A stretch of DNA of 64,000 bases from Roseateles sp. SL47. Lineage in GTDB: Bacteria; Pseudomonadota; Gammaproteobacteria; Burkholderiales; Burkholderiaceae_C. The translations under genes and the position numbers were made by a program. Below are positions 48,666 through 63,856 of the stretch, piece after piece. The stretch is from NCBI RefSeq assembly GCF_026625885.1, contig NZ_CP113068.1:6200001-6264000 (forward strand). The letters are read 5' to 3'. The notes under the pieces are model-generated. The model made no database searches and was not told the origin of the DNA. It saw only the letters and a list, made by a program, of their open reading frames with translations. How positions within the stretch are numbered: the stretch's first letter is position 1; every line of letters begins with the position of its first letter.

Positions 48666-48940
48666 CAGTTCCCCATGACCTCGCAGAGACCGCATACGGG
48701 CGCGAGCTCGCAGTGGCGCTGCGCTCCCTGGCTGCGATCTTGGTGGTGCCCTTGGCAGCCACTGCCACCGCATTGACCCTGACAGGTCTTGCCCCGAACG
48801 GGCGGCCGCTTCACCAGTGCCTGTCGGTAGCGACTGCGCCCCGCTGGGCCGAGCCCAAGGATCAAAGTGCCGACGCATCGCCTCGCCGATCGAGCTCGGT
48901 GCCCTCCCACACCGCCGCCCATTCCAGCGCACCGCGCTGA
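48662..48940 (+). CDS. 92-residue protein with one membrane segment
   Basis: It starts at ATG 48662, overlapping the 34-residue frame by 4 nt. There is one hydrophobic segment (LAAILVVPLAATATALTLTG, ~23-42). The C-terminal half is Ser/Ala/Pro/Arg-rich and His-containing, outside or inside the membrane. I recognise no family. It is followed after 19 nt by the TonB receptor and is likely co-transcribed with it; an accessory role in the receptor system is inference. Confidence 0.55.
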   Translation: MTVPHDLAETAYGRELAVALRSLAAILVVPLAATATALTLTGLAPNGRPLHQCLSVATAPRWAEPKDQSADASPRRSSSVPSHTAAHSSAPR

Positions 48941-48959
48941 TCGATTCAAAAGGTCTCTC

Positions 48960-51080
48960 ATGTCCATCCCGGCCTCCTTGCCGTTCACCACCCTGAACCA
49001 GGCCTTGAAGCTGCTGCCAGCCGCCCTGTCCGCAGGGTTTCTGGTGCCCGCCCTGGCCCAAGACGCCGGCAAGCTGCCGGATGTCCTGGTGACGGGAACA
49101 GCCCCTGCTGCCAGCTATCTGCCGGATGCATCCGTCAGCGTCAGCCGCACCACCACGCCCCTGAGCGCCCAGGCTGCGGCCATCCAGGTCGTTCCCCAAG
49201 CGGTGCTGCGGGATCGCAATGTGACGCGCACCGACCAGTTGATTGAAAACGTCAGCGGCATCCTGCCGGAGTCCACTTACGGCGGAAACGGTGCCACCTT
49301 CTTCAACATCCGCGGCTTCAGCGAAAACAACGGCCTGCGCGACGGTTTCCGGAACTTCGGCTACCTCGCCTTCCGTGACGTCCAGAACATTGAGCGCGTG
49401 GAAGTGTTCAAGGGACCGTCGGGTGCCCTGTATGGGGGCGTCGGAGCGGTGGGTGGCTACGTCAACACCGTGTCCAAGCAAGCGCTGAGCAACGACTTCA
49501 CCGAGCTTCGCCTCACCGGCGGCTCTTACGATCAAGCGCGTACCGCAGAGGATGTGAACCGTTCGACCAGCCCCGCGCTGCGCGTGCGCCTGAATGCATC
49601 CGCCGAGCACAACAACATGGAGCGGGACCATGCCTTATTCAATAGTGTGTCCATCGCGCCTGCACTGAGCTGGTCGGTGGATGCCGACACCTCGGTCACG
49701 TTGCTGACCGAGTTCAATCTGCTGCGCCGTCAGGGCTTTGATTTTGGAGTCCCGAATATCCCGGATTACAAGAAGCTCGACACCAAACGTTATTACGGAC
49801 TGACTGACGGCATGGCCGCCGGCGTATCCGGGGACTTCGGTCGCAATGACACGCGCGCCGTCACCGCGCAGCTGGAGCATCGATTCAACGAGACGTGGAC
49901 CCTGCGCACCGCCGTTCAGTACACCTACGCACGTCAGCAATCCACCCAGACCTTCCCCAACACCACAACCGCCACGGACAAGCTACTGGACTTCACGGTC
50001 TATTCAGGCTCTGTGGAGGAATCCACGCAATACGGGCTGCGCTCTGAACTGCTGGGCACGGTGAATCTGGCCGGCTTCCAGCATCAAGTGCTGGCGGGGG
50101 GGGACTATGGCTATCTTGAACAAGGAAGCCGAGGGTCCCGGAGCTATGGATTGACCCTGGACCTGACCGCCCCCAGCGTGCAGTTCCCGCTCACCGATCT
50201 GGGCAGCAATGCCTCGCATCAGGGTCAAGGCCGAGACCTTGGGATCTTCATTCAAGATCAGGTGATCTTCAGTCCGGCCTGGCAAGCGTCATTGGCCCTG
50301 CGGGCAGACCACTTCCGCAACCGGGCCTTGGTGGCCGGCAGCGAAACCAGCCGTGAGAGCCAATCGGCCTGGTCGCCACGACTGGGACTGGTCTGGTTGC
50401 CGACCGCCCAGACCTCGGTCTTTGCCGACTGGAGCCGCAGCCACGCGCCGAACGTCGGTCATGGCGCCAATGAAAACACCTTCGAGGCCGAAGTCGCCAC
50501 CCAGTGGGAGGCGGGTGTAAAGCAGCAACTGTTCAACAACCGGCTGCTGCTGACACTGGCCGCGTTTCGCCTGGAACGCAGCAATATGCTCACGACCGAC
50601 CCCACCGATCCGACCCGTCAGGTGTTGACCGGCCAGCAGAACAGCCGGGGCCTGGAGCTGGACCTCGCCGGGGCGATCACCAACACCTGGAAAGTCATGG
50701 GCAGCTACAGCTATACCGATGCCTTCGTGAAGCGTGACGGCAGCTTGCCCACCGGCGATGCACTGACCAACGTGCCGCGCCATCACGCCAACCTGTGGTC
50801 CACCTGGGACCTTGCTTCGCTGCCGGGCTGGGGAATCGGGGCGGGCGTCTATTACGTGGGGGCCCGCGAGGCCACCTTGCCCAACAGCTACAAACTCAGC
50901 GCTTACGTCAGGAGCGATGTTGCGGTGTTCTACCGCCACAACGAGTGGCGCGTGCAGCTCAACGTAGACAACGTGTTGGACCGTTCCTACTACACCGGCG
51001 GCAGCGCCAGCACCTTCAACTACATGCTGCAGCCTGGCGCGGGACGCTCGGCCCGCCTGTCCGCCAGCTACCTGTTCTGA
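48960..51080 (+). CDS. TonB-dependent siderophore-type receptor
   Basis: A 706-residue outer-membrane receptor. A signal peptide ends near VPALAQ (~33). A TonB-box-like KLPDVLVTG (~37-45) and a plug with AIQVVPQAVL (~76-85), FFNIRGFSENNG (~115) and IERVEVFKGPSGALYGG (~144-160) follow. The barrel ends in LSASYLF with a C-terminal Phe. VFKGPSGALYG and the QVVPQ.VL words mark the siderophore (FhuA/FoxA-like) branch. ATG 48960 is chosen since it starts the signal-like region; the frame is open further up. It follows a DUF2946 protein and two small membrane proteins. Confidence 0.93.
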   Translation: MSIPASLPFTTLNQALKLLPAALSAGFLVPALAQDAGKLPDVLVTGTAPAASYLPDASVSVSRTTTPLSAQAAAIQVVPQAVLRDRNVTRTDQLIENVSGILPESTYGGNGATFFNIRGFSENNGLRDGFRNFGYLAFRDVQNIERVEVFKGPSGALYGGVGAVGGYVNTVSKQALSNDFTELRLTGGSYDQARTAEDVNRSTSPALRVRLNASAEHNNMERDHALFNSVSIAPALSWSVDADTSVTLLTEFNLLRRQGFDFGVPNIPDYKKLDTKRYYGLTDGMAAGVSGDFGRNDTRAVTAQLEHRFNETWTLRTAVQYTYARQQSTQTFPNTTTATDKLLDFTVYSGSVEESTQYGLRSELLGTVNLAGFQHQVLAGGDYGYLEQGSRGSRSYGLTLDLTAPSVQFPLTDLGSNASHQGQGRDLGIFIQDQVIFSPAWQASLALRADHFRNRALVAGSETSRESQSAWSPRLGLVWLPTAQTSVFADWSRSHAPNVGHGANENTFEAEVATQWEAGVKQQLFNNRLLLTLAAFRLERSNMLTTDPTDPTRQVLTGQQNSRGLELDLAGAITNTWKVMGSYSYTDAFVKRDGSLPTGDALTNVPRHHANLWSTWDLASLPGWGIGAGVYYVGAREATLPNSYKLSAYVRSDVAVFYRHNEWRVQLNVDNVLDRSYYTGGSASTFNYMLQPGAGRSARLSASYLF

Positions 51081-54115: not shown

Positions 54116-56263
54116 TTAATAGTCCAGCCGCAGGGTGGCGCGGGCTGCGCGCGGCGAGCCGAGCTTGATCCAGTCCTGGGACCAGGGGTGGCTGGCGGTG
54201 TAGTACTTCTTGTCGAACAGGTTGTCGACGTTGAGCTGGAGGGAAGCCTTGGCGCCGGCCCAGCCAAACCGATAGGCAAGCATTGCATCCACCCGTGCGT
54301 AGCCCGGCAGCTGGAAGGTGTTGCCGAGATCGCCTTCGCGCTGGCCCTGCGCAAACACACCCGCGCCGGTGCTCCATTGACTGTCAATGGCGTAGCGCGC
54401 CCAGACGCTGCCGGCGTGACGGGCCACATTGGTCAGCCTCTTGCCCTCATAGCTCGGGTCCTCGAGCACGCGGGTGTCGGTGTATGCATACGACGCGATG
54501 ACCGAGACGCTCCGGCTGACTTGGCCCGACAGGTCCCATTCCAAGCCGCGCGAACGTGCCTTGCCCACGGTGACGATGTTGTAGTAGGGGGCCTCGTCAA
54601 TGGGTACCTGCCCCGAGCGGTTGCGCTTGGTCAGCTCGTAGACCGCAAGCGTTGAAGAGAGCTTGCCGTCCAACAGCTCCACCTTGTGGCCGACTTCAAA
54701 CTGACGTCCCCGCTCCGCCGGCAGCGCCGCCCCCGTCACAGTGTCCCGGCCGTTGTTGGTGGACACGGCGTCCTGATACTGCGCATAGATCGATTGGTTG
54801 GGAGCGAACTGCCACACCGCCCCCAGTCGTGGCGTCGTGAACGATGCCTTGTTGGGCTCCGTGCCCGGTGCCGCGTAGATGGCGCTGGTGCGATCATGGC
54901 GCAAGGCACCGGTCAGGAACACGCCATGGCCCAGAGCCACCTGGTCCTGCACATAGACGCTGGTCCAGCGGGTGCTGTCGTCAAGATCGGGCACCCGCGA
55001 GGACGGGTCCAGCGGCGCCGTATGCCCCAGCGCCGGCTCGTAGATGTCCACCGCGCTGACCTGCTGGAAATACAACGCGCCGGTCTTGCGCGCACTGTAG
55101 ACATCCACGCCGAAGAGCAGGGTGTGATCCAGGCCGGCCGCTTCCAGCCTGCCGATCAGGTCCACATTGAATTGATCCAGCTTGTAACGGCCATCCGGTC
55201 GGACGTTGAAGTAGTAGCGGCAGATCGGATTGCCGGTTCCGGGGCAGCTGTCGTCCGCGGTCGTGCCCGCGCCGAGGTCGACGCGGTAGGGGGCGATGTC
55301 CACTTCCGAGGTGTCACTGCGCAGGCTCAGCAGCTTGCTCTTGATCTGCCACTGGCTGGAGAGACGGTGCTCCAGCTCCAGCCGCAGGCTGGTGGTCTTG
55401 CTGGAGGACAGCTCGGGGGAATCGTTGAACTGGCGCGACCACGGCAGGTCCGCCGGGCGGTTGCCCGCTGCAGGCACGCCGTAGTCGGTGCGATAACGCT
55501 GGTCGCTGTAGTCCAGCGTGGCGGTCAATGTGGTCTGGCTGCTGGGCTGCCAGGCCAGCGCTGCGCTGAAGGCGCCCAGCTTGTCGCGGACAAAATCGCG
55601 GACCGAATCTGCGGTGGAGTACGACCCCGATACACGGCCGCGCAGGCTGCGATCGTCGTTGAGCGCACCGGAGGCCTCCACGGCGGTGCGGGACAGCCCG
55701 TACTGGCCCACCGTCTGCTCCAGGCTCCAACTGGCCACTGAACTGATGGGTTTGCTGATCACATTGACCAAACCGCCCGGCTCGGCGCGCCCGTAAAGCA
55801 CGCTCGCGGGGCCCTTGACCACCTCCACCGATTGCACATTGGCCATGTTGATGGGTACTCCGGTGACTTTGGTGCCATCCAGGTAATAGGTCGAGCCGCC
55901 CGACATCGCCCCCATGGCGGTCATCGACACGCTGGGGAAACCGCGCAGGATGGTCAGCGGCATGGCGCTGCCGTTGAAACCGAAGTCAAACTGCACGCCG
56001 GACACGTTCCGCAGCGCATCGCTGAGTTGCAGCGTGTTTTGATCGTCCAGCACGGCCCGAGAAATCACCTGAACACTCTGCGGGCTTTGGAGGGATGGTG
56101 TCAGGGTGCGATTGCCCGTGGCCGTATCGGGCGCCTTGTAGGTGTCGCGCTGGCCGTCCACCTTGACAGTGGGCAGGGTCTGGGAGGGAGTTTCCGACTG
56201 GGCGTGGGCGGTCAGGGTCAGGCAGGCCAACGCGAGCGTCGTCAGAGGAGGAAGCTTGTTCAT
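54116..56263 (-). CDS. TonB-dependent siderophore receptor
   Basis: A 715-residue receptor. The signal peptide is TLALACLTLTAHAQS (~9-23), followed by a TonB-box-like LPTVKVDGQ (~30-38). The plug has SPQSVQVISRAVLDDQ (~59), LTILRGFP (~104) and VEVVKGPASVLYGRAEPGGLVN (~145-166), the classic wording of FhuA-like siderophore receptors. The barrel ends in ARATLRLDY (aromatic C-terminus Tyr). MNKL at 56263 is chosen because it begins the signal peptide; the frame is open 42 codons further. It forms a minus-strand operon with the PepSY and DJ-1/PfpI genes, headed by DUF2946 copy 4. Confidence 0.94.
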   Translation of the reverse strand: MNKLPPLTTLALACLTLTAHAQSETPSQTLPTVKVDGQRDTYKAPDTATGNRTLTPSLQSPQSVQVISRAVLDDQNTLQLSDALRNVSGVQFDFGFNGSAMPLTILRGFPSVSMTAMGAMSGGSTYYLDGTKVTGVPINMANVQSVEVVKGPASVLYGRAEPGGLVNVISKPISSVASWSLEQTVGQYGLSRTAVEASGALNDDRSLRGRVSGSYSTADSVRDFVRDKLGAFSAALAWQPSSQTTLTATLDYSDQRYRTDYGVPAAGNRPADLPWSRQFNDSPELSSSKTTSLRLELEHRLSSQWQIKSKLLSLRSDTSEVDIAPYRVDLGAGTTADDSCPGTGNPICRYYFNVRPDGRYKLDQFNVDLIGRLEAAGLDHTLLFGVDVYSARKTGALYFQQVSAVDIYEPALGHTAPLDPSSRVPDLDDSTRWTSVYVQDQVALGHGVFLTGALRHDRTSAIYAAPGTEPNKASFTTPRLGAVWQFAPNQSIYAQYQDAVSTNNGRDTVTGAALPAERGRQFEVGHKVELLDGKLSSTLAVYELTKRNRSGQVPIDEAPYYNIVTVGKARSRGLEWDLSGQVSRSVSVIASYAYTDTRVLEDPSYEGKRLTNVARHAGSVWARYAIDSQWSTGAGVFAQGQREGDLGNTFQLPGYARVDAMLAYRFGWAGAKASLQLNVDNLFDKKYYTASHPWSQDWIKLGSPRAARATLRLDY

Positions 56264-56392
56264 ACAGTGAGGTCTTGGGCCGGTCTTCTCGCTGGCGAGA
56301 ACCGGCGAATGCGCGGTGGGGCAGGCCGCGTGGCGGCTGCCGGCATCTTGCTGAGCCGGCGCCATCTGCCAAGGCTCAGCCGTCTCCAAAGC

Positions 56393-57267: not shown

Positions 57268-57708
57268 GAGCGTACTGGAGCCTTGCGGGGCGAAGAAGAG
57301 CTGAAAGTACTTTGCTGACTGCAATTTAGTGGATTCGTCCGGAATCGCCCCAAGCTGATGACTGTACGTTGGTGTACCGAAAATCAGCTGTACAGCGTTC
57401 TACCTTTCGTACCCCAAGCCAGCGCCATCACACACCCTGCCGCTCACTTCTTGGCAGGCTTGGACTGACCTTGGTAGCTGCTTCCAACGCACGCACATTG
57501 AGCTCGGCGCCTTCCGCCTCAACTGGAACTCGGGGTTGCGCAGCATAAATCTCGTATCGAAATCTCGCGTGGGCGTCGGCATGCTTCTTTGAGCCTCCCG
57601 AGCAGCTTGGGAAGATCTTTTGCAATCGGGCGAATGGGTGGCTCATCTGGTGAGCTAGTTTGTCGCCAACAATCCGACGTGCACAGCTTGGCCAGGGAGT
57701 ACAACAAC

Positions 57709-60447
57709 ATGGGTCCTACTTATTTCAACTATTGGGGGAAAGCCCGGCCAGTCGCTGATGGCCGGGCTGAATGGCATTTGCTGCCCTTTCACTGCCTTGA
57801 CGTCGCGGCTGTCGGCGTGGTTTACCTCCAGAGAGCCCCACATCTTTGCCGCCGGCTGCAAGAGCAACTGCAGATGTCGGACGCGCAGCTTCTGGATTGG
57901 ATGGCTTTCTGGTTGGCCATTCACGACCTCGGGAAGTTCGCCTCGGCGTTTCAAGCGCAGCGATCCGACATCGTGAAGCGCTTGCAGGAGCGAGCGATCA
58001 ATACCAGTTACACGGTTCGACATGACTCCCTGGGCATGATGTTCTGGCGAGAGCGCTTGTCCACGCGAGTGATGCAGGAAACATGGTTTGGGCCTGATAC
58101 CGAAGGCCTGATGTACGGCCTGGATTTTTGGGCCCGTGCAGTCACCGGGCATCACGGCCAGCCACCGGAGGAGTCGCGCCGCGATCTGGGACCGCATTTC
58201 CATAGTGACCACGATCTGCCAGCGGCGACCGAGTTTGCCGTTCAGATGAAGAACACCTTTCTTCGCGGCTTTGATTTCAACCAAGGGTGTTTTTCAAACC
58301 CGAAAGCCTTTCTGCGTGAGAGCAGACGCCTGTCTTGGTGGGTTGCCGGGTTGGCCGTGTTGGCTGATTGGGTCGGGTCGAACCAGGACTACTTCAACTA
58401 TCACGATGAGCCGCTGCCCTTGAAGGACTACTGGGCCAGCGCCTTGATCAAGGCGGAACGCGCGGTTGGCGCGGTTGGCATTCTGCCAGTTGCCACGAAG
58501 TGCCAGCTTGGTTTCGACCAGTTGTTCCCTGATATTTCCGTGCCTTCCCCCTTGCAGGCTTGGGCAGAGGACGTGCAGTTGGTGACCGGCCCTCAAATCC
58601 ATTTGCTCGAAGACGTCACTGGTGCCGGCAAGACAGAAGCTGCCATGGCTTTGACACATCGCTTGATGGGTGAGGGTTCAGCGGATGGTTTCTTCATTGG
58701 CCTGCCCACCATGGCCACTGCCAATGCCATGTACGGTCGGCTGAGTACCTTCTACATGCGGCTGTACGACGGCCTTGCCAGCATGACCCTCGCCAACGGC
58801 CAGCGTGATTTGGTGTCTGCCTTCGCCCAGTCGGTGTTGGAGCCGGGCGAACCGGAAGCTGACGTTGACCAGCAGGATGAAACTGCGACCGCGCGTTGCA
58901 CTGCTTGGCTGGCAGATCACAACAAGCGCGCGCTGCTCGCGCCGACCGGAGTGGGCACCATCGACCAGGCTCTGATGGCTGCCTTGCAAGGGAAGCATCA
59001 ATCTTTGCGTTTGCTGGGCTTGTTCCGAAAAGTCTTGGTGGTCGACGAAGTGCACGCCTGCGACCCCTATATGCAAGGCGTACTTGAACGCCTGCTGGAG
59101 TGCCATGCGCAGGCGGGCGGGAGTGCCATCCTGTTGTCGGCCACTTTGCCGCAAGTCATGAAGCAAAGCCTGCTGGACGCATTCGCAACCGGGGCCGGGT
59201 CACAAGCGCCGGAGGCATGTGGTTCGGGCTATCCATTGGTCACCAGTTGGTCTGCCGCCCGACCTGATCAACTGCTTGAGGCCGAGGTGGCTACTCGGGC
59301 CGATGTGTCTCGCAAGGTAATGACGCGTTACTGCGCGGACGTTGGCGATGTTGTGACCGGCATCAAGGAGGCACTGGAAAAGGGGCAGTGCGTTTGCTGG
59401 ATGCGCAACACGGTGATTGACGCCTTGGACGCACACGCCATGTTTGCTAACCACATGCCGGCAGATAACTTGACGTTGTTTCATGCGCGCTTTTCTCTCA
59501 GTGATCGCCTGGGCTCAGAGCAACTCATTCTGGAGCGCTTTGGCAAACACAGCACGCCCGAGCAACGGCGTGGCCGCCTCGTTATTGCAACCCAGGTGGC
59601 CGAGCAGTCGCTTGATGCAGATTGGGATCTGGTAGTCAGTGACCTCGCCCCCATTGATCGATTGATTCAGCGAGCCGGCCGCTTGCAGCGCCATCGCCGT
59701 GATGCTCAAGGTCGGCGCCTCTTTGACGCTGCGCAAGCAGATGGCCGCGGTGCCCCGACCCTATGGGTATTGGGGCCTGCCTGGAATCGTGAGCCGACGC
59801 GTGATTGGTTCAAGGCCGCCTTTCCCAAATCCGCGAAGGTGTATCGGCATCACGGGCAACTGTGGCTGACGGCGCAGCTGTTGCAGGCGGGCAGCTTCGC
59901 GATGCCGGCGGACGCACGCACGCTCATTGAGGGTGTGTTCGGTGCGAGCCAAACCTTTCCACCAGGCTTGCAGCCCTTGGCTGACGGCGTGGAGGGCGAG
60001 GAAATGAGTGAGGCCTCCTTGGCCAAACAGAATTCCATCAAGCTGGGCGTTGGCTACCAGCGCGGCAGCGTGGACTGGTGGGCTGATGCCAAAACGCCCT
60101 CCCGCATTGGCGAGCCCAGCGTGAGCGTGCTGCTTGCCCGCTGGCGCAATGGCCGTTTGGTGCCGTGGGTTGATCACGCTGAGGTTCGCTACGCCTGGGC
60201 TTACAGCACCGTGCGCGTGCCACAACGGTTGATCGCAGCCACCGCTGATCTGGATGACGCCGATCAGCAAGCAGAGTTGTTGCGGGTCCAGGAAACCCTG
60301 CCGGATAAGGGCAAGTGGTCGGTGCTCTTGCCGCTTGAGGAGCTTGAGCAGCGTCATGAAGGCGTTGCGCTGGCTCAGCAGGGTGCTCGTCAGGTGAAGC
60401 GTCGATGGACCTACGACCCGCAGTTTGGACTGAAGGCCGTAGGGTGA
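57709..60447 (+). CDS. cas3: Type I-E CRISPR nuclease-helicase Cas3
   Basis: A 912-residue HD nuclease plus superfamily 2 helicase. The HD part has FHCLD (~28), IHDLGKFA (~71) and GHHGQP (~148). The helicase part has Walker A VTGAGKTEAA (~303), the DEVH box (~447), SAT in LLSATLP (~477), IATQVAEQSLD (~627) and QRAGRLQRH (~655). Cas3 is recruited by target-bound Cascade and degrades the DNA. ATG 57709 is chosen since AGGGAG lies 10 nt upstream and MGPTYFNYWGK is the usual beginning; the frame is open 40 codons further. It is first in the operon, 183 nt before casA, and that gap carries repeat-like regulatory sequence. Confidence 0.97.
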   Translation: MGPTYFNYWGKARPVADGRAEWHLLPFHCLDVAAVGVVYLQRAPHLCRRLQEQLQMSDAQLLDWMAFWLAIHDLGKFASAFQAQRSDIVKRLQERAINTSYTVRHDSLGMMFWRERLSTRVMQETWFGPDTEGLMYGLDFWARAVTGHHGQPPEESRRDLGPHFHSDHDLPAATEFAVQMKNTFLRGFDFNQGCFSNPKAFLRESRRLSWWVAGLAVLADWVGSNQDYFNYHDEPLPLKDYWASALIKAERAVGAVGILPVATKCQLGFDQLFPDISVPSPLQAWAEDVQLVTGPQIHLLEDVTGAGKTEAAMALTHRLMGEGSADGFFIGLPTMATANAMYGRLSTFYMRLYDGLASMTLANGQRDLVSAFAQSVLEPGEPEADVDQQDETATARCTAWLADHNKRALLAPTGVGTIDQALMAALQGKHQSLRLLGLFRKVLVVDEVHACDPYMQGVLERLLECHAQAGGSAILLSATLPQVMKQSLLDAFATGAGSQAPEACGSGYPLVTSWSAARPDQLLEAEVATRADVSRKVMTRYCADVGDVVTGIKEALEKGQCVCWMRNTVIDALDAHAMFANHMPADNLTLFHARFSLSDRLGSEQLILERFGKHSTPEQRRGRLVIATQVAEQSLDADWDLVVSDLAPIDRLIQRAGRLQRHRRDAQGRRLFDAAQADGRGAPTLWVLGPAWNREPTRDWFKAAFPKSAKVYRHHGQLWLTAQLLQAGSFAMPADARTLIEGVFGASQTFPPGLQPLADGVEGEEMSEASLAKQNSIKLGVGYQRGSVDWWADAKTPSRIGEPSVSVLLARWRNGRLVPWVDHAEVRYAWAYSTVRVPQRLIAATADLDDADQQAELLRVQETLPDKGKWSVLLPLEELEQRHEGVALAQQGARQVKRRWTYDPQFGLKAVG

Positions 60448-60458
60448 GACTTGTCATA

Positions 60459-60487
60459 CGGTCATCCCCACCATGGTGGGGAACGAG
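60459..60487 (-). CRISPR. Degenerate I-E repeat A (3' repeat of a mini-array)
   Basis: On the minus strand: prefix (C)TCGTT, 16-nt hairpin CCCCACCATGGTGGGG, then ATGACCG. This is the I-E repeat plan (5-nt prefix, 6-bp stem with 4-nt loop, 8-nt handle), with one A lost from the handle. It lies 11 nt after the cas3 stop. As the downstream repeat it would supply the 3' hairpin of a crRNA-like transcript. Confidence 0.8.
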
Positions 60488-60506
60488 GTCCGAACGTTAG
60501 ACGGCT
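60488..60506 (-). CRISPR. Short spacer of the mini-array, matching the casA promoter
   Basis: Read on the minus strand directly after the repeat-B handle, its first 18 nt are AGCCGTCTAACGTTCGGA. The stretch at 60580-60563 (minus strand) is AGCCGACTAACCTTCGGA. Only positions 6 and 12 differ. With 19-20 nt instead of the usual 32, it is far shorter than an immunity spacer of this type. Confidence 0.8.
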
Positions 60507-60535
60507 CGGTTCATCTTCAACACGTTGAAGAAGCC
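60507..60535 (-). CRISPR. Degenerate I-E repeat B (5' repeat, canonical handle)
   Basis: On the minus strand: GGCTT, hairpin CTTCAACGTGTTGAAG, then ATGAACCG, giving 5+16+8 = 29 nt, the exact I-E repeat geometry. The stem keeps pairing although its sequence differs completely from repeat A. The 8-nt handle ATGAACCG is the form I recall from typical GGGGATGAACCG-ending I-E repeats. Cas6e cleavage at the stem base would leave this handle on the short guide. Confidence 0.75.
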
Positions 60536-60558
60536 AACACTATCGCAAAATAAAAAAT

Positions 60559-60588
60559 TTTATCCGAAGGTTAGTCGGCTCTTATCAT
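60559..60588 (+). promoter_or_regulatory. casA promoter overlapping the Cascade self-target and AAG PAM
   Basis: A -10-like TATCAT (60583-60588) with a weak -35-like TTATCC (60560-60565) 17 nt upstream would drive casA. The self-target of the mini-array spacer (60563-60580) occupies the -35/-10 spacer. Its PAM, 5'-AAG on the minus strand (60583-60581), touches the -10 box. Cascade bound here should block RNA polymerase. The AT-rich stretch at 60546-60562 could also serve a minus-strand promoter for the guide itself. Confidence 0.6.
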
Positions 60589-60630
60589 TTTCTGCTAGTG
60601 TTCGGCCACAACGATGCAGGGAGAACTGTC

Positions 60631-62247
60631 ATGCAATTGTTTGAAGAAAATTGGATGCCCGTGCGGACACGCACGGGAGAGCGCCGCTGGATTGCGCCTG
60701 ATCAGCTGTCTGACCCCGACCTGGTTGCGTTCGACTCTGAGCGGGCCGATTTCAACGGTGCCTTGATGCAGTTCGGCATCGGGCTTCTGACGACCACCAT
60801 TCCGTTGGAAGACGGCCTGGATTGGCGTGGCCTGTTCCAGTCGCCGCCTGATCGGAGTTCATTGCGCCGTTGGTTTCAACCACACGCCACAGCGTTCAAG
60901 TGCGACGGCGACGGTCCGCGATTTTTGCAGGACTTTTCGTTGACCAACCCGCCTGATGTCGGCATCGCCTCGCTGCTGATCGACTCGCCGGGTGAAAACG
61001 CCATCAAGAACAACAGCGACCATTTCGTGAAGCGAGGGCGCATCGAACATCTCTGCCCGCATTGCGCGATTACCGCCTTGCTGACGCTGCAGATCAACGC
61101 GCCAGCAGGTGGGGCCGGCAATCGCACTGGTTTGCGTGGCGGTGGCCCCTTGACCACTTTGTTGGCTTGCCAGCCGACGCAGTCACTTTGGCATGACCTC
61201 TGGCTCAACGTGATGGAGTTGCCTGCGAGCCATGCGTATGGCGGCGACCCGAAGAAGACGGCGGCGCACTTCACCTTCCCCTGGCTGGCAGACATCACTG
61301 GCATCCAGAAGGAGGGTGGCGAAACTTCGCCACTGCAAACGCATCCGTTCCATGTCTTTTGGGGCATGCCTCGCCGAATCCGTCTTGATTTTCAAGCCAC
61401 CCAACCTGGCGAATGCGATCTCTGCCATCGCTTTCATGAGCAGTTGATTCATCAATACGCCACAAGGCCGTACGGCTTGAACTACAAGGGCCCCTGGGAC
61501 CATGTCTTGTCGCCTTATTACGAAACCAAGGAGGGTTGGTTACCGCTACACCCACAGCCCGGAGGCTTCGGCTATCGGCACTGGCTGGCCTGGGTGCTTG
61601 GCGCTGGTGATGACAAACAGCGTCAGCGGCCCGCACGGGTTCTAGAGCATTACCGGACCACCCGTCGTGCCAATCATGCCGGTACGCAGTTGAAGCTATG
61701 GGCCTTTGGCTACGACATGGAGAACATGAAACCGAGGTGCTGGTATGAGTCCACCTTGCCGCTTTATGGATTGGAAGGCTGTGACACCCAGGACGTTGTG
61801 CGGATTGAGGCCATGGTTGGCACTTGGCTAGAAGCAGCCAAGTTCAGCCTCTATGCCTTGCGCAGTGCCGTCAAATCAGCCTGGTTTGGTGGTGATGCCC
61901 GCGGCGACTACAGCGCCGTAGACGCAGCGTTCTGGACCCAGACCGAGTCAGCGTTCTACGAGTACTTGAAGCTGTTGATCAGCTCAGCTCGTGAGGGTCG
62001 CCTCATCGATGGCCCGCAACTCGGGCAGCTTTGGCTTCAGGCCTTGAGCCGCGCCTGCTTGCGCCTGTTTGACGAGGTGTTTGTGGGTGCCGGCCAAATT
62101 GGCAGGCAGAACCCGCAGCGCGTAGCTGCCGCACACAAGCTGCTTCGAAACACACTGTACGGCAACAAGCTCCGTGCCATGTTGAATCTGCCCGTCACAG
62201 AGCCCGCAGGCAAGGGTTCCAAGCGGCTCGTAACCAAATCCAATTGA
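60631..62247 (+). CDS. casA: Cascade large subunit CasA (Cse1/Cas8e)
   Basis: A 538-residue protein beginning MQLFEENWMPVRTRTGERRWIAP, the usual Cse1 opening (LF...W(I/M)PV). It has the typical Cys pairs LCPHCAITALL (~140) and ECDLCHRFH (~265). CasA recognises the PAM and recruits Cas3. ATG 60631 is chosen: AGGGAG lies 7 nt ahead; the frame is open 11 codons upstream to 60598. It is followed 10 nt later by casB. The promoter in front appears to be a Cascade target. Confidence 0.95.
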   Translation: MQLFEENWMPVRTRTGERRWIAPDQLSDPDLVAFDSERADFNGALMQFGIGLLTTTIPLEDGLDWRGLFQSPPDRSSLRRWFQPHATAFKCDGDGPRFLQDFSLTNPPDVGIASLLIDSPGENAIKNNSDHFVKRGRIEHLCPHCAITALLTLQINAPAGGAGNRTGLRGGGPLTTLLACQPTQSLWHDLWLNVMELPASHAYGGDPKKTAAHFTFPWLADITGIQKEGGETSPLQTHPFHVFWGMPRRIRLDFQATQPGECDLCHRFHEQLIHQYATRPYGLNYKGPWDHVLSPYYETKEGWLPLHPQPGGFGYRHWLAWVLGAGDDKQRQRPARVLEHYRTTRRANHAGTQLKLWAFGYDMENMKPRCWYESTLPLYGLEGCDTQDVVRIEAMVGTWLEAAKFSLYALRSAVKSAWFGGDARGDYSAVDAAFWTQTESAFYEYLKLLISSAREGRLIDGPQLGQLWLQALSRACLRLFDEVFVGAGQIGRQNPQRVAAAHKLLRNTLYGNKLRAMLNLPVTEPAGKGSKRLVTKSN

Positions 62248-62257
62248 GGAGGGACGC

Positions 62258-62752
62258 ATGTCCAGAAAACTGACTGAAGACACCCCGGTCGGCAAAGCCT
62301 TGATCGACTGGTGGAAACATCTTGATGATGACAAAGGCGGCCGGGCGCAGTTGCGGCGCGCGTCAAGCGTGTTCGAGGCGCTGATGTGCCCCGCATTCCA
62401 GCGTTTGCAGAGCCGCCTGGTTGCAATCAGCCCAGAGATGTTCAGCAAGGGACATCAGCTCGACCGGCTGGCCATGGCCTGCGCGTTGATGGCGCACGTC
62501 AAGGTCACGAGCGAACTCACATTGCCAAAGGCCATGAGTGCTCGGCCCAAGGGCGCAGAGCGCAATCCAGTCAGTGAGCTGCGATTCAAGCGTTTGCTTG
62601 AGTCACCCGACGACGAGGCCTTGTTCTCCGGATTGCGCCGTGCTCTGCCCCTGATCGAGCAAAAAGTAGATTTGCTGAGCCTGGCCAGCGCCGTTCTGTA
62701 CTGGGGCAACGATGTCAAACGTGCCTGGGCTTATGACTACGACTGGCTTTGA
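62258..62752 (+). CDS. casB: Cascade small subunit CasB (Cse2/Cas11e)
   Basis: A 164-residue, helix-rich protein of the Cse2 family: AL.DWW..L (~14-22, ALIDWWKHL) at the start, RAQLRRASS (~29-37), and RFKRLLES (~107) near the middle, plus the C-terminal WGNDVKRAWAYDY. Two copies of CasB form the belly of Cascade and stabilise the R-loop. GGAGG 5 nt before the ATG supports the start. It lies between casA and casC as usual. Confidence 0.95.
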   Translation: MSRKLTEDTPVGKALIDWWKHLDDDKGGRAQLRRASSVFEALMCPAFQRLQSRLVAISPEMFSKGHQLDRLAMACALMAHVKVTSELTLPKAMSARPKGAERNPVSELRFKRLLESPDDEALFSGLRRALPLIEQKVDLLSLASAVLYWGNDVKRAWAYDYDWL

Positions 62753-62803: not shown

Positions 62804-63856
62804 ATGTCCACTTTCCTTCAACTGCACGTTCTCACCAGCCACGCACCGTCTAATCTCAACCGTGATGACACCGGTCGTCCGAAGACTGCCTTGATGGGTG
62901 ACGCGCTGCGTTTGCGGATCTCATCGCAAAGCCAGAAGCGGGCATGGCGGACTTCAGATGTATTTGAAGAAGCGTTGGGTGAGCATCTCGGCAAGCGGAC
63001 ACGCATGCTGGGCAAGGAAGCCTATGACCTGATCAAGGCAGCAGGCGTTGATGACAAGAAGGCGCGCGAATGGGCCCGTCAGATCGCCGCCTGTTTCGGC
63101 AAGATCAAATCTGACAAGAAAACCGAGCAAGACGAAGACTTGCAGATCGAACAGCTTGCCCACGTGAGCCCTGCTGAGCGCGCTGCCGTGCTAGCTTTGG
63201 CCCAAGCCTGTGGCGAGCGCAAGGCCGGTCCAGACGAGTCCGAACTCAAGTTGCTCACCAGCGAAGCTGGCGCTGTCGACATCGCGATGTTTGGCCGCAT
63301 GTTGGCTGATTCGCCGGCATTCAACGTCGAAGCGGCAGTGCAGGTTGCGCACGCTATCACCGTGCACCGCGCCGCAGTTGAAGACGACTATTTCAGTGCC
63401 GTCGATGACCTGAACCCCCGTGGCGCAGGACATATCGGCGAGCGTGGCTACGGCGCCGGTTTGTTCTACCTTTACGTGTGTATCAATCGCGACCTGCTCA
63501 AAGCCAACCTCAATGGGGACGATGCCTTGGTCAGCAAAGCGCTGGATGCGTTGCTGCAGGCCATCACCAAGGTCAGCCCGACGGGGATGCAGAACAGCTT
63601 TGCGTCTCGCGCTTATGCCAGCTATGTGCTGGCGGAAAAAGGGTCGCAACAGCCCCGCAGTTTGTCCCAGGCGTACATCAAGCCGGTCAAGCCCTACGGC
63701 AACCAGTCGATGCTGAGTGAGGCCATCGCCGCACTGTCTAAGCAGCGTGACGGCTTTGACAAAGTGTACGGCCAGTGTTCCGACGCCCACCGCGAGATTA
63801 ATGCAGAGGAAGGCACGGGTTCGCTTTCGGAGATTGCCGCTTTCTTGCAGGGCTGA
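62804..63856 (+). CDS. casC: Cascade backbone subunit CasC (Cse4/Cas7e)
   Basis: A 350-residue RAMP-type protein starting MSTFLQLHVLTSHAPSNLNRDDTGRPKTA, the near-invariant opening of Cas7e. RISSQSQKRAWRTS (~38-51) is the crRNA-binding region, and a thumb-like basic part follows. Six copies make the backbone of Cascade and insert a thumb at every sixth guide base, which leaves that base unpaired. AGGGAG 9 nt before the ATG supports the start. The next gene begins 3 nt after the stop. Confidence 0.96.
   Translation: MSTFLQLHVLTSHAPSNLNRDDTGRPKTALMGDALRLRISSQSQKRAWRTSDVFEEALGEHLGKRTRMLGKEAYDLIKAAGVDDKKAREWARQIAACFGKIKSDKKTEQDEDLQIEQLAHVSPAERAAVLALAQACGERKAGPDESELKLLTSEAGAVDIAMFGRMLADSPAFNVEAAVQVAHAITVHRAAVEDDYFSAVDDLNPRGAGHIGERGYGAGLFYLYVCINRDLLKANLNGDDALVSKALDALLQAITKVSPTGMQNSFASRAYASYVLAEKGSQQPRSLSQAYIKPVKPYGNQSMLSEAIAALSKQRDGFDKVYGQCSDAHREINAEEGTGSLSEIAAFLQG

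Follow-up and report, generated by a model that had tools for sequence, protein, structure and literature searches.

A two-repeat mini-CRISPR upstream of casA in Roseateles sp. SL47 is predicted to encode a CreR-type guide RNA directed at its own type I-E operon

Introduction

Between cas3 and casA of Roseateles sp. SL47 the minus strand carries two repeat-like units flanking a spacer that resembles a stretch just upstream of casA, raising the question of whether this CRISPR system may direct its own Cascade to its own operon. Guides of this kind have reportedly been described as CreR, including a type I-E form, by Liu et al. in Cell Host Microbe in 2023. As far as the excerpts of the CreR papers used here extend, the type I-E form is a mini-CRISPR in the cas locus that has partial complementarity to a cas promoter and uses the effector as a repressor. 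In those excerpts CreR (Cas-regulating RNA) is reported for types I-B, I-E and V-A (PMC13131331, PMC12737573, PMC12948488) and acts on type I-E Cas promoters (PMC13131331). In the CreA guides of type I-B the repeats yield handles of 8 nt (5') and 22 nt (3'), and in the experiments covered by the excerpt seed pairing at positions 1-5 and 7-11 was needed while changes at 6 and 12 were tolerated (PMC8501985).

Materials and Methods

The window is the whole 64,000-nt stretch of DNA that was analysed, positions 6200001-6264000 of a 6.39-Mb single-contig genome. The start of R2, and with it the spacer length, was placed two bases before GTTCCCC, as in the array repeat GTGTTCCCCACGGGCGTGGGGATGAACCG.

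Loci with casA were taken from 15 named contigs and from searches through genome sets drawn from relatives, the order, the class, the family and the phylum, in which 2 of 60, 16 of 399, 31 of 369, 7 of 200 and 20 of 398 genomes, respectively, had casA matches; the search sets overlap, and each includes the window's own genome. Weak or partial casA matches were left out (G667, G698, two further places in G795 and one in G1193), as was L150, which is on the same contig as L010; the partly similar pairs L101/L102 and L120/L132 were retained. The survey comprised 82 distinct type I-E casA loci, for which wide flanks were fetched. A first detector used strict seeds, and chance matches without repeat structure (e.g. 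L006, L040 and L067) were dropped by eye. A second required a 16-nt hairpin, with chance pairs again dropped by eye; the units of L002, L004, L008, L012, L103, L121 and L125, which it missed, were taken from other scans and re-measured.

For the position-blind analysis of mismatches, selection was on at least 8 matches within positions 1-12. Of 28 strong units tested, 25 entered the count. L135 was left out because it nearly duplicates L128, and the second unit of L117 and that of L144 scored below 8 of 12; the second unit of L106 and that of L161 passed and were kept, although they resemble chance pairs. One ordinary-array member in each of L012 and L103 was removed by hand.

Results

The window contains the following cas genes:

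57589..60447, plus strand: cas3 (Cas3e), an open frame with PADLOC Cas3e E 5.5e-199, whose end is 11 nt short of R2; its stated start, at the earliest start codon in the frame, may be too early
60631..62247, plus strand: casA (Cas8e), PADLOC Cas8e E 5.1e-103, opening the Cascade operon
62258..62752, plus strand: casB (Cas11e), assigned by PADLOC
62804..63856, plus strand: casC (Cas7e), assigned by PADLOC

As the PADLOC models assign Cas3e, Cas8e, Cas11e and Cas7e, the system is of type I-E. The genome's ordinary array starts about 11 kb downstream of the mini-array, beyond the window; its repeat pattern has 115 matches in the genome, and in the stretch read all 65 of 65 were identical. This long array repeats one spacer (G000:C1:6276178-6276231 and 6276608-6276661), a sign of array duplication.

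The gap between cas3 and casA is 183 nt long, and its minus strand carries the mini-array:

60507..60535, minus strand: R1, the 5' repeat, GGCTTCTTCAACGTGTTGAAGATGAACCG, recognised from sequence, fold and stem covariation
60514-60507, minus strand: the 8-nt handle of R1, ATGAACCG, exact
60487..60506, minus strand: the spacer (guide), 20 nt, AGCCGTCTAACGTTCGGACC
60459..60486, minus strand: R2, the 3' repeat, with the stem-loop CCCCACC/GGTGGGG retained and the handle decayed (ATGACCG, one base short)

R1 lies at 60535-60507, where the original prediction had it as repeat B. The 18-nt spacer (60506-60489) and repeat A (60487-60459) of that prediction had to be adjusted: counted up to where R2 begins, the spacer has 20 nt (60506-60487), and R2 spans 60486-60459. 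Two repeat-like units forming a mini-CRISPR inside or beside a cas operon are a feature that the unit shares with CreR. The repeat hairpin and handle are of one family with those of the genome's type I-E array; the latter, however, has the near-identical repeats and 32-33-nt spacers of a canonical array, whereas the mini-array has two divergent, non-identical repeats, one 20-nt spacer and a self target. R1 is identical to the array repeat at 18 of 29 positions and R2 at 20 of 29 (11 and 9 differing positions). In R1 both arms of the stem have changed in sequence, to CTTCAAC/GTTGAAG from CCCCACG/CGTGGGG in the array, with seven pairs and the exact handle retained.

Fold energies of the guide RNA pieces were modestly better than those of shuffled sequences (z -1.35 to -1.79). 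The predicted free guide RNA (60466-60514) folds back on itself, with spacer bases 12-17 paired to the last three bases of the handle (6-8) and the first three of the spacer (1-3), which according to this fold model might slow loading. Rfam gave zero matches at E 1 for 60300-60700.

Upstream of casA lie the target and its surroundings:

60561..60580, minus strand: protospacer, of which positions 1-18 (60580-60563) pair with the spacer except at 6 and 12
60581..60583, minus strand: AAG protospacer-adjacent motif
60560..60588, plus strand: predicted casA promoter, read by eye as TTATCC (60560-60565), 17 nt and TATCAT (60583-60588)
60539..60544, minus strand: GATAGT, a -10-like hexamer predicted for the guide gene and placed 9 nt upstream of R1

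The target stretch AGCCGACTAACCTTCGGA at 60580-60563 is identical to the spacer at 16 of 18 positions with mismatches only at 6 and 12, and it is preceded by AAG, all as first claimed from the sequence; the site is 51 nt upstream of casA. When the guide was fixed and the remainder of the 183-nt gap was dinucleotide-shuffled 2000 times, no shuffle equalled this match (best 14; with AAG, 12), and with the guide free none of 500 gap shuffles contained any same-strand pair at 16 of 18 (best 14).

The pattern AAGAGCCGNCTAAC, seed plus AAG, has a single site at up to one mismatch in the 6.39-Mb genome, the target itself, versus 10 sites for the reversed control pattern. One reason for the difference may be base composition, CTAA probably being rare in this genome; another may be avoidance of off-target sites. 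The single site bears on the possibility of a CreTA or CrePA addiction unit, in which the guide would repress a toxin and not the cas genes; CreT toxins can be tiny RNAs. As described in the available part of the CreTA report, CreA guides share with the window unit the two-repeat layout (two divergent repeats giving the 5' handle from the first and the 3' handle from the second) as well as the seed at 1-5 and 7-11, the motif beside the target and free positions 6 and 12 (PMC8501985). However, CreA represses a toxin (PMC8501985), whereas the window unit's only target is upstream of casA and its pairing continues to position 18. Just 47 nt separate the motif from casA, and no separate gene was seen there at the 80-amino-acid cut-off of the frame list, which would pass over a very small frame. 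With the sole genomic target directly before casA and no separate toxin target, the addiction reading was rejected as highly improbable.

A mini-array with a nearby target was found in 26 of the 82 casA loci, the window included. Named hosts include Aquabacterium, Accumulibacter, Pseudoxanthomonas, two Pigmentiphaga and Paucibacter. The target is flanked by AAG in 23 of the units and by AAA, AAT and ATG in L120 (G554), L140 (G602) and L156 (G1224), respectively; the guide of L156 is on the same strand as casA. Among the 23 AAG units, a spacer is common to two loci only for L128 and L135. In L122 (G737) and L153 (G961) the target is on the strand opposite to the usual one, so that Cascade would face the other way, and in L153 18 bases are matched with zero mismatches.

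Where casA has a free upstream gap of 100 nt or more, 22 of 33 loci have a unit, the other 11 showing none within the 5 kb searched. Where the gap is below 100 nt, 2 of 43 loci have a unit (L014, upstream of cas3, and L103), and where no upstream frame was detected, 2 of 6. The same-genus relative G007, in which cas3 overlaps casA, has no unit. In this sequence survey, placement by gap size fits a brake at the promoter of the operon. In L014 cas3 also overlaps casA, and unit and target lie upstream of cas3, about 3.1 kb upstream of casA.

According to the original prediction, the target sits between the -35 and -10 boxes of casA, but these boxes are weak. By eye two hexamers fit, TTATCC and TATCAT, with the target between and partly over them, whereas a sigma-70 consensus scan of the gap found no promoter of at least 9 of 12 for casA or for the guide. 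Partial spacer complementarity next to a motif in a cas promoter region is again as in CreR, the casA promoter itself being predicted. Across loci, the interval 7-14 nt upstream of R1 is enriched in TATAAT-like hexamers: 15 of 22 loci score at least 4 of 6 and none of 300 shuffles reaches the mean; a second bin, 55-62 nt upstream, includes 13 of the 22 loci as well. Given the enrichment just upstream of R1, the guide transcript may start at R1.

In a variant, and not an opposite, of the autorepression reading, the target region would serve as a divergent promoter, with Cascade chiefly holding down the guide gene itself, or both directions at once. The window's target begins 45 nt upstream of R1, and in 10 of 20 non-redundant same-strand pairs the target is 26-55 nt upstream of R1, close to the expected position of a guide promoter; the enrichment of -10-like hexamers at 7-14 nt also counts in favour. 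In the other 10 pairs, however, the distance is 63-227 nt, and the consensus scan found no promoter of either direction in the gap. We regard this variant as conceivable but rather unlikely.

Covariation of spacer and promoter among related operons, proposed as a check along with the original prediction, was borne out. When mini-array candidates were chosen blind to the target, 22 of 63 matched their own flanks (at least 8 of 10 seed positions plus AAG), versus 39 of 3860 combinations with guides and flanks swapped between loci (at least 8 of 10 seed positions). The 22 comprise 21 real units and one chance match, most of the remaining candidates being chance hairpins; the test misses L008, with an 18-nt loop in R1, and L112, which is cut by a contig end. 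In two Pigmentiphaga loci, whose Cas8e proteins are 79% identical, guide and target changed together at positions 1, 3, 5 and 10; at position 6 the guides agree and one target differs, as read from the letters, the alignment lining up guides and not targets. Guide and target are therefore retained as a pair across relatives, as in CreR. Chance similarity, or a recent functionless duplication of a promoter fragment, is accordingly of negligible probability: capture of a promoter fragment could explain how such a spacer originated, but no shuffle reached the observed match, and guide and target agree within loci while differing between them.

In the 22 non-redundant AAG pairs, positions 1-5 and 7-11 are identical in 210 of 220 cells, a height biased upward because the pairs were found partly by their seed. 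Positions 6, 12 and 18 are identical in 7, 5 and 4 of 22 pairs, with 5.5 expected by chance, position 18 already sitting in the falling part of the profile. Matches at positions 1-10 number 22, 22, 20, 22, 21, 7, 22, 22, 19 and 20, and at positions 11-20 they number 20, 5, 19, 13, 14, 12, 11, 4, 7 and 3; over positions 13-17, 69 of 110 cells are identical. Under the position-blind selection, 34 of 51 mismatches within positions 1-12 fall at 6 or 12. The earlier suggestion of drift at only the unpaired positions thus extends beyond the window, with 6 and 12 drifting freely and the other ten seed positions held.

The two repeats have diverged asymmetrically across loci. The R1 handle agrees with ATGAACCG at 6-8 of 8 positions (22 loci), and the corresponding place in R2 at 0-6 of 8 (21 loci, one being cut by a contig end). 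Conversely, the start of R2 retains GTTCCCC at 5-7 of 7 positions, R2 having been located by that motif, versus 1-7 for the start of R1. In the stem alignment of 23 R1 sequences, 79.5% of the cells are paired and the covariation score is 0.592, versus 0.282 when shuffled and at most 0.252 when slid; these 23 of 26 exclude L135, a duplicate, and the irregular hairpins of L008 and L012, a choice that favours structure. The R1 stem of L008 has 5 bp and a loop of 18 nt.

These patterns bear on whether the unit is a defunct relic, the remnant of an array end that has a self-targeting spacer and has ceased to make RNA. The divergence of R1 and R2 from the array repeat, 18 and 20 of 29, and the lack of a consensus promoter in the gap would fit such a relic. 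The asymmetry of the decay, however, fits a single use, the handle being kept in R1 and the stem-loop in R2, the stem pairs covary, and the seeds stay matched in those 210 of 220 cells across genera whose spacers differ. A relic is therefore very unlikely.

Spacers of the units measured 20 nt (5), 21 nt (3), 22 nt (1), 30 nt (1), 32 nt (8) and 33 nt (4), the R2 start being uncertain by about one base, and so fall into two classes of 20-22 nt (n=9) and 30-33 nt (n=13) with none between. By comparison, the 2455 ordinary-array spacers from 55 of the 82 loci, in a count that covered 6 to 61 nt and left out L150, were 29-42 nt long, 2281 of them 32 nt and 165 of them 33 nt. In the long class, positions 19-32 are identical in 49 of 180 cells, which is the chance level (p 0.49). 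Both classes thus avoid full pairing, the long one by sequence and the short one by length.

Discussion

The two-repeat mini-CRISPR in Roseateles sp. SL47 very probably encodes a CreR-type guide RNA that would lead the system's own Cascade to a site upstream of casA and likely lower expression of the operon. The idea that a built-in guide makes Cascade a repressor, put forward from this one locus, gains support from the covariation across loci; it is not new in kind, as CreR already embodies it. No difference in kind between CreR and the window unit is apparent from the available excerpts of the CreR reports. On sequence grounds the unit is, with high confidence, most likely a further member of that kind. 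CreR also involves a Cas6-processed, Cascade-bound RNA, for which the unit has an intact handle and intact stems, and effector-dependent repression of cas genes that crRNA excess or anti-CRISPRs relieve. An analogy outside type I is reportedly the natural single-guide RNA by which Cas9 represses its own expression (Workman 2021); it is alike in that an RNA encoded in the locus makes the effector an autorepressor and unlike in effector, RNA and origin, so that it implies no membership.

Under the preferred CreR-type reading, a minus-strand transcript would begin about at R1, and Cas6e cleavage just after the two repeat stems would give a guide RNA of 49 nt, versus 61 for an array crRNA, made up of the 8-nt handle from R1, the 20-nt spacer and a 21-nt stem-loop from R2. 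The number of Cas7-type subunits follows guide length (PMC6828817, in the part available), and the Cascade formed on this guide would be expected to lack two of the usual Cas7 subunits. At the AAG-flanked site, such a complex would pair through positions 1-5, 7-11 and 13-18, with bases 6 and 12 flipped out, and its binding would block transcription, much as E. coli type I-E Cascade placed on a promoter silences it in the available part of that report (PMC12235044).

The short guide would also keep Cas3 from cutting the chromosome. Shortened E. coli guides, however, can reportedly still allow interference (Kuznedelov 2016), and a short guide alone may therefore not prevent self-cutting. For type I-B, the excerpted report describes a spacer cut from 36 to 24 nt that still represses and no longer cuts or primes, and a 20-bp spacer that represses less well than one of 21-24 bp (PMC10989794).

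If the CreR-type reading is true, a CRISPR system sets its own dose, with a home-made guide turning Cascade into a brake on its own operon. With array crRNAs as competitors for Cascade, the brake would be expected to loosen whenever crRNAs are abundant or inhibitors occupy Cascade. The 26 loci amount to a natural mutagenesis, which suggests that a repressing type I-E Cascade needs positions 1-5, 7-11 and partly 13-17 of the guide and not 6, 12 and 18.

The comparative pairing profile and the 12-nt step in spacer length may add something to the known picture of CreR. It is possible that the autorepressor guides of type I-E exist as two builds of quantised length, 12 nt or two Cas7 footprints apart: a full-length build of 30-33 nt in which pairing has stopped by about position 18, and a short build of 20-22 nt forming a four-Cas7 mini-Cascade that would bind without cutting. 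The window would then hold the short build, a natural counterpart of engineered type I-B silencing with short guides. We consider this proposal evenly poised between right and wrong; the two length classes make the question of safe self-targeting directly testable.

Elsewhere in the window, the frames 48867-51080 and 54116-56389 resemble, by eye only, TonB-dependent receptors, with a PepSY-like membrane protein between them.
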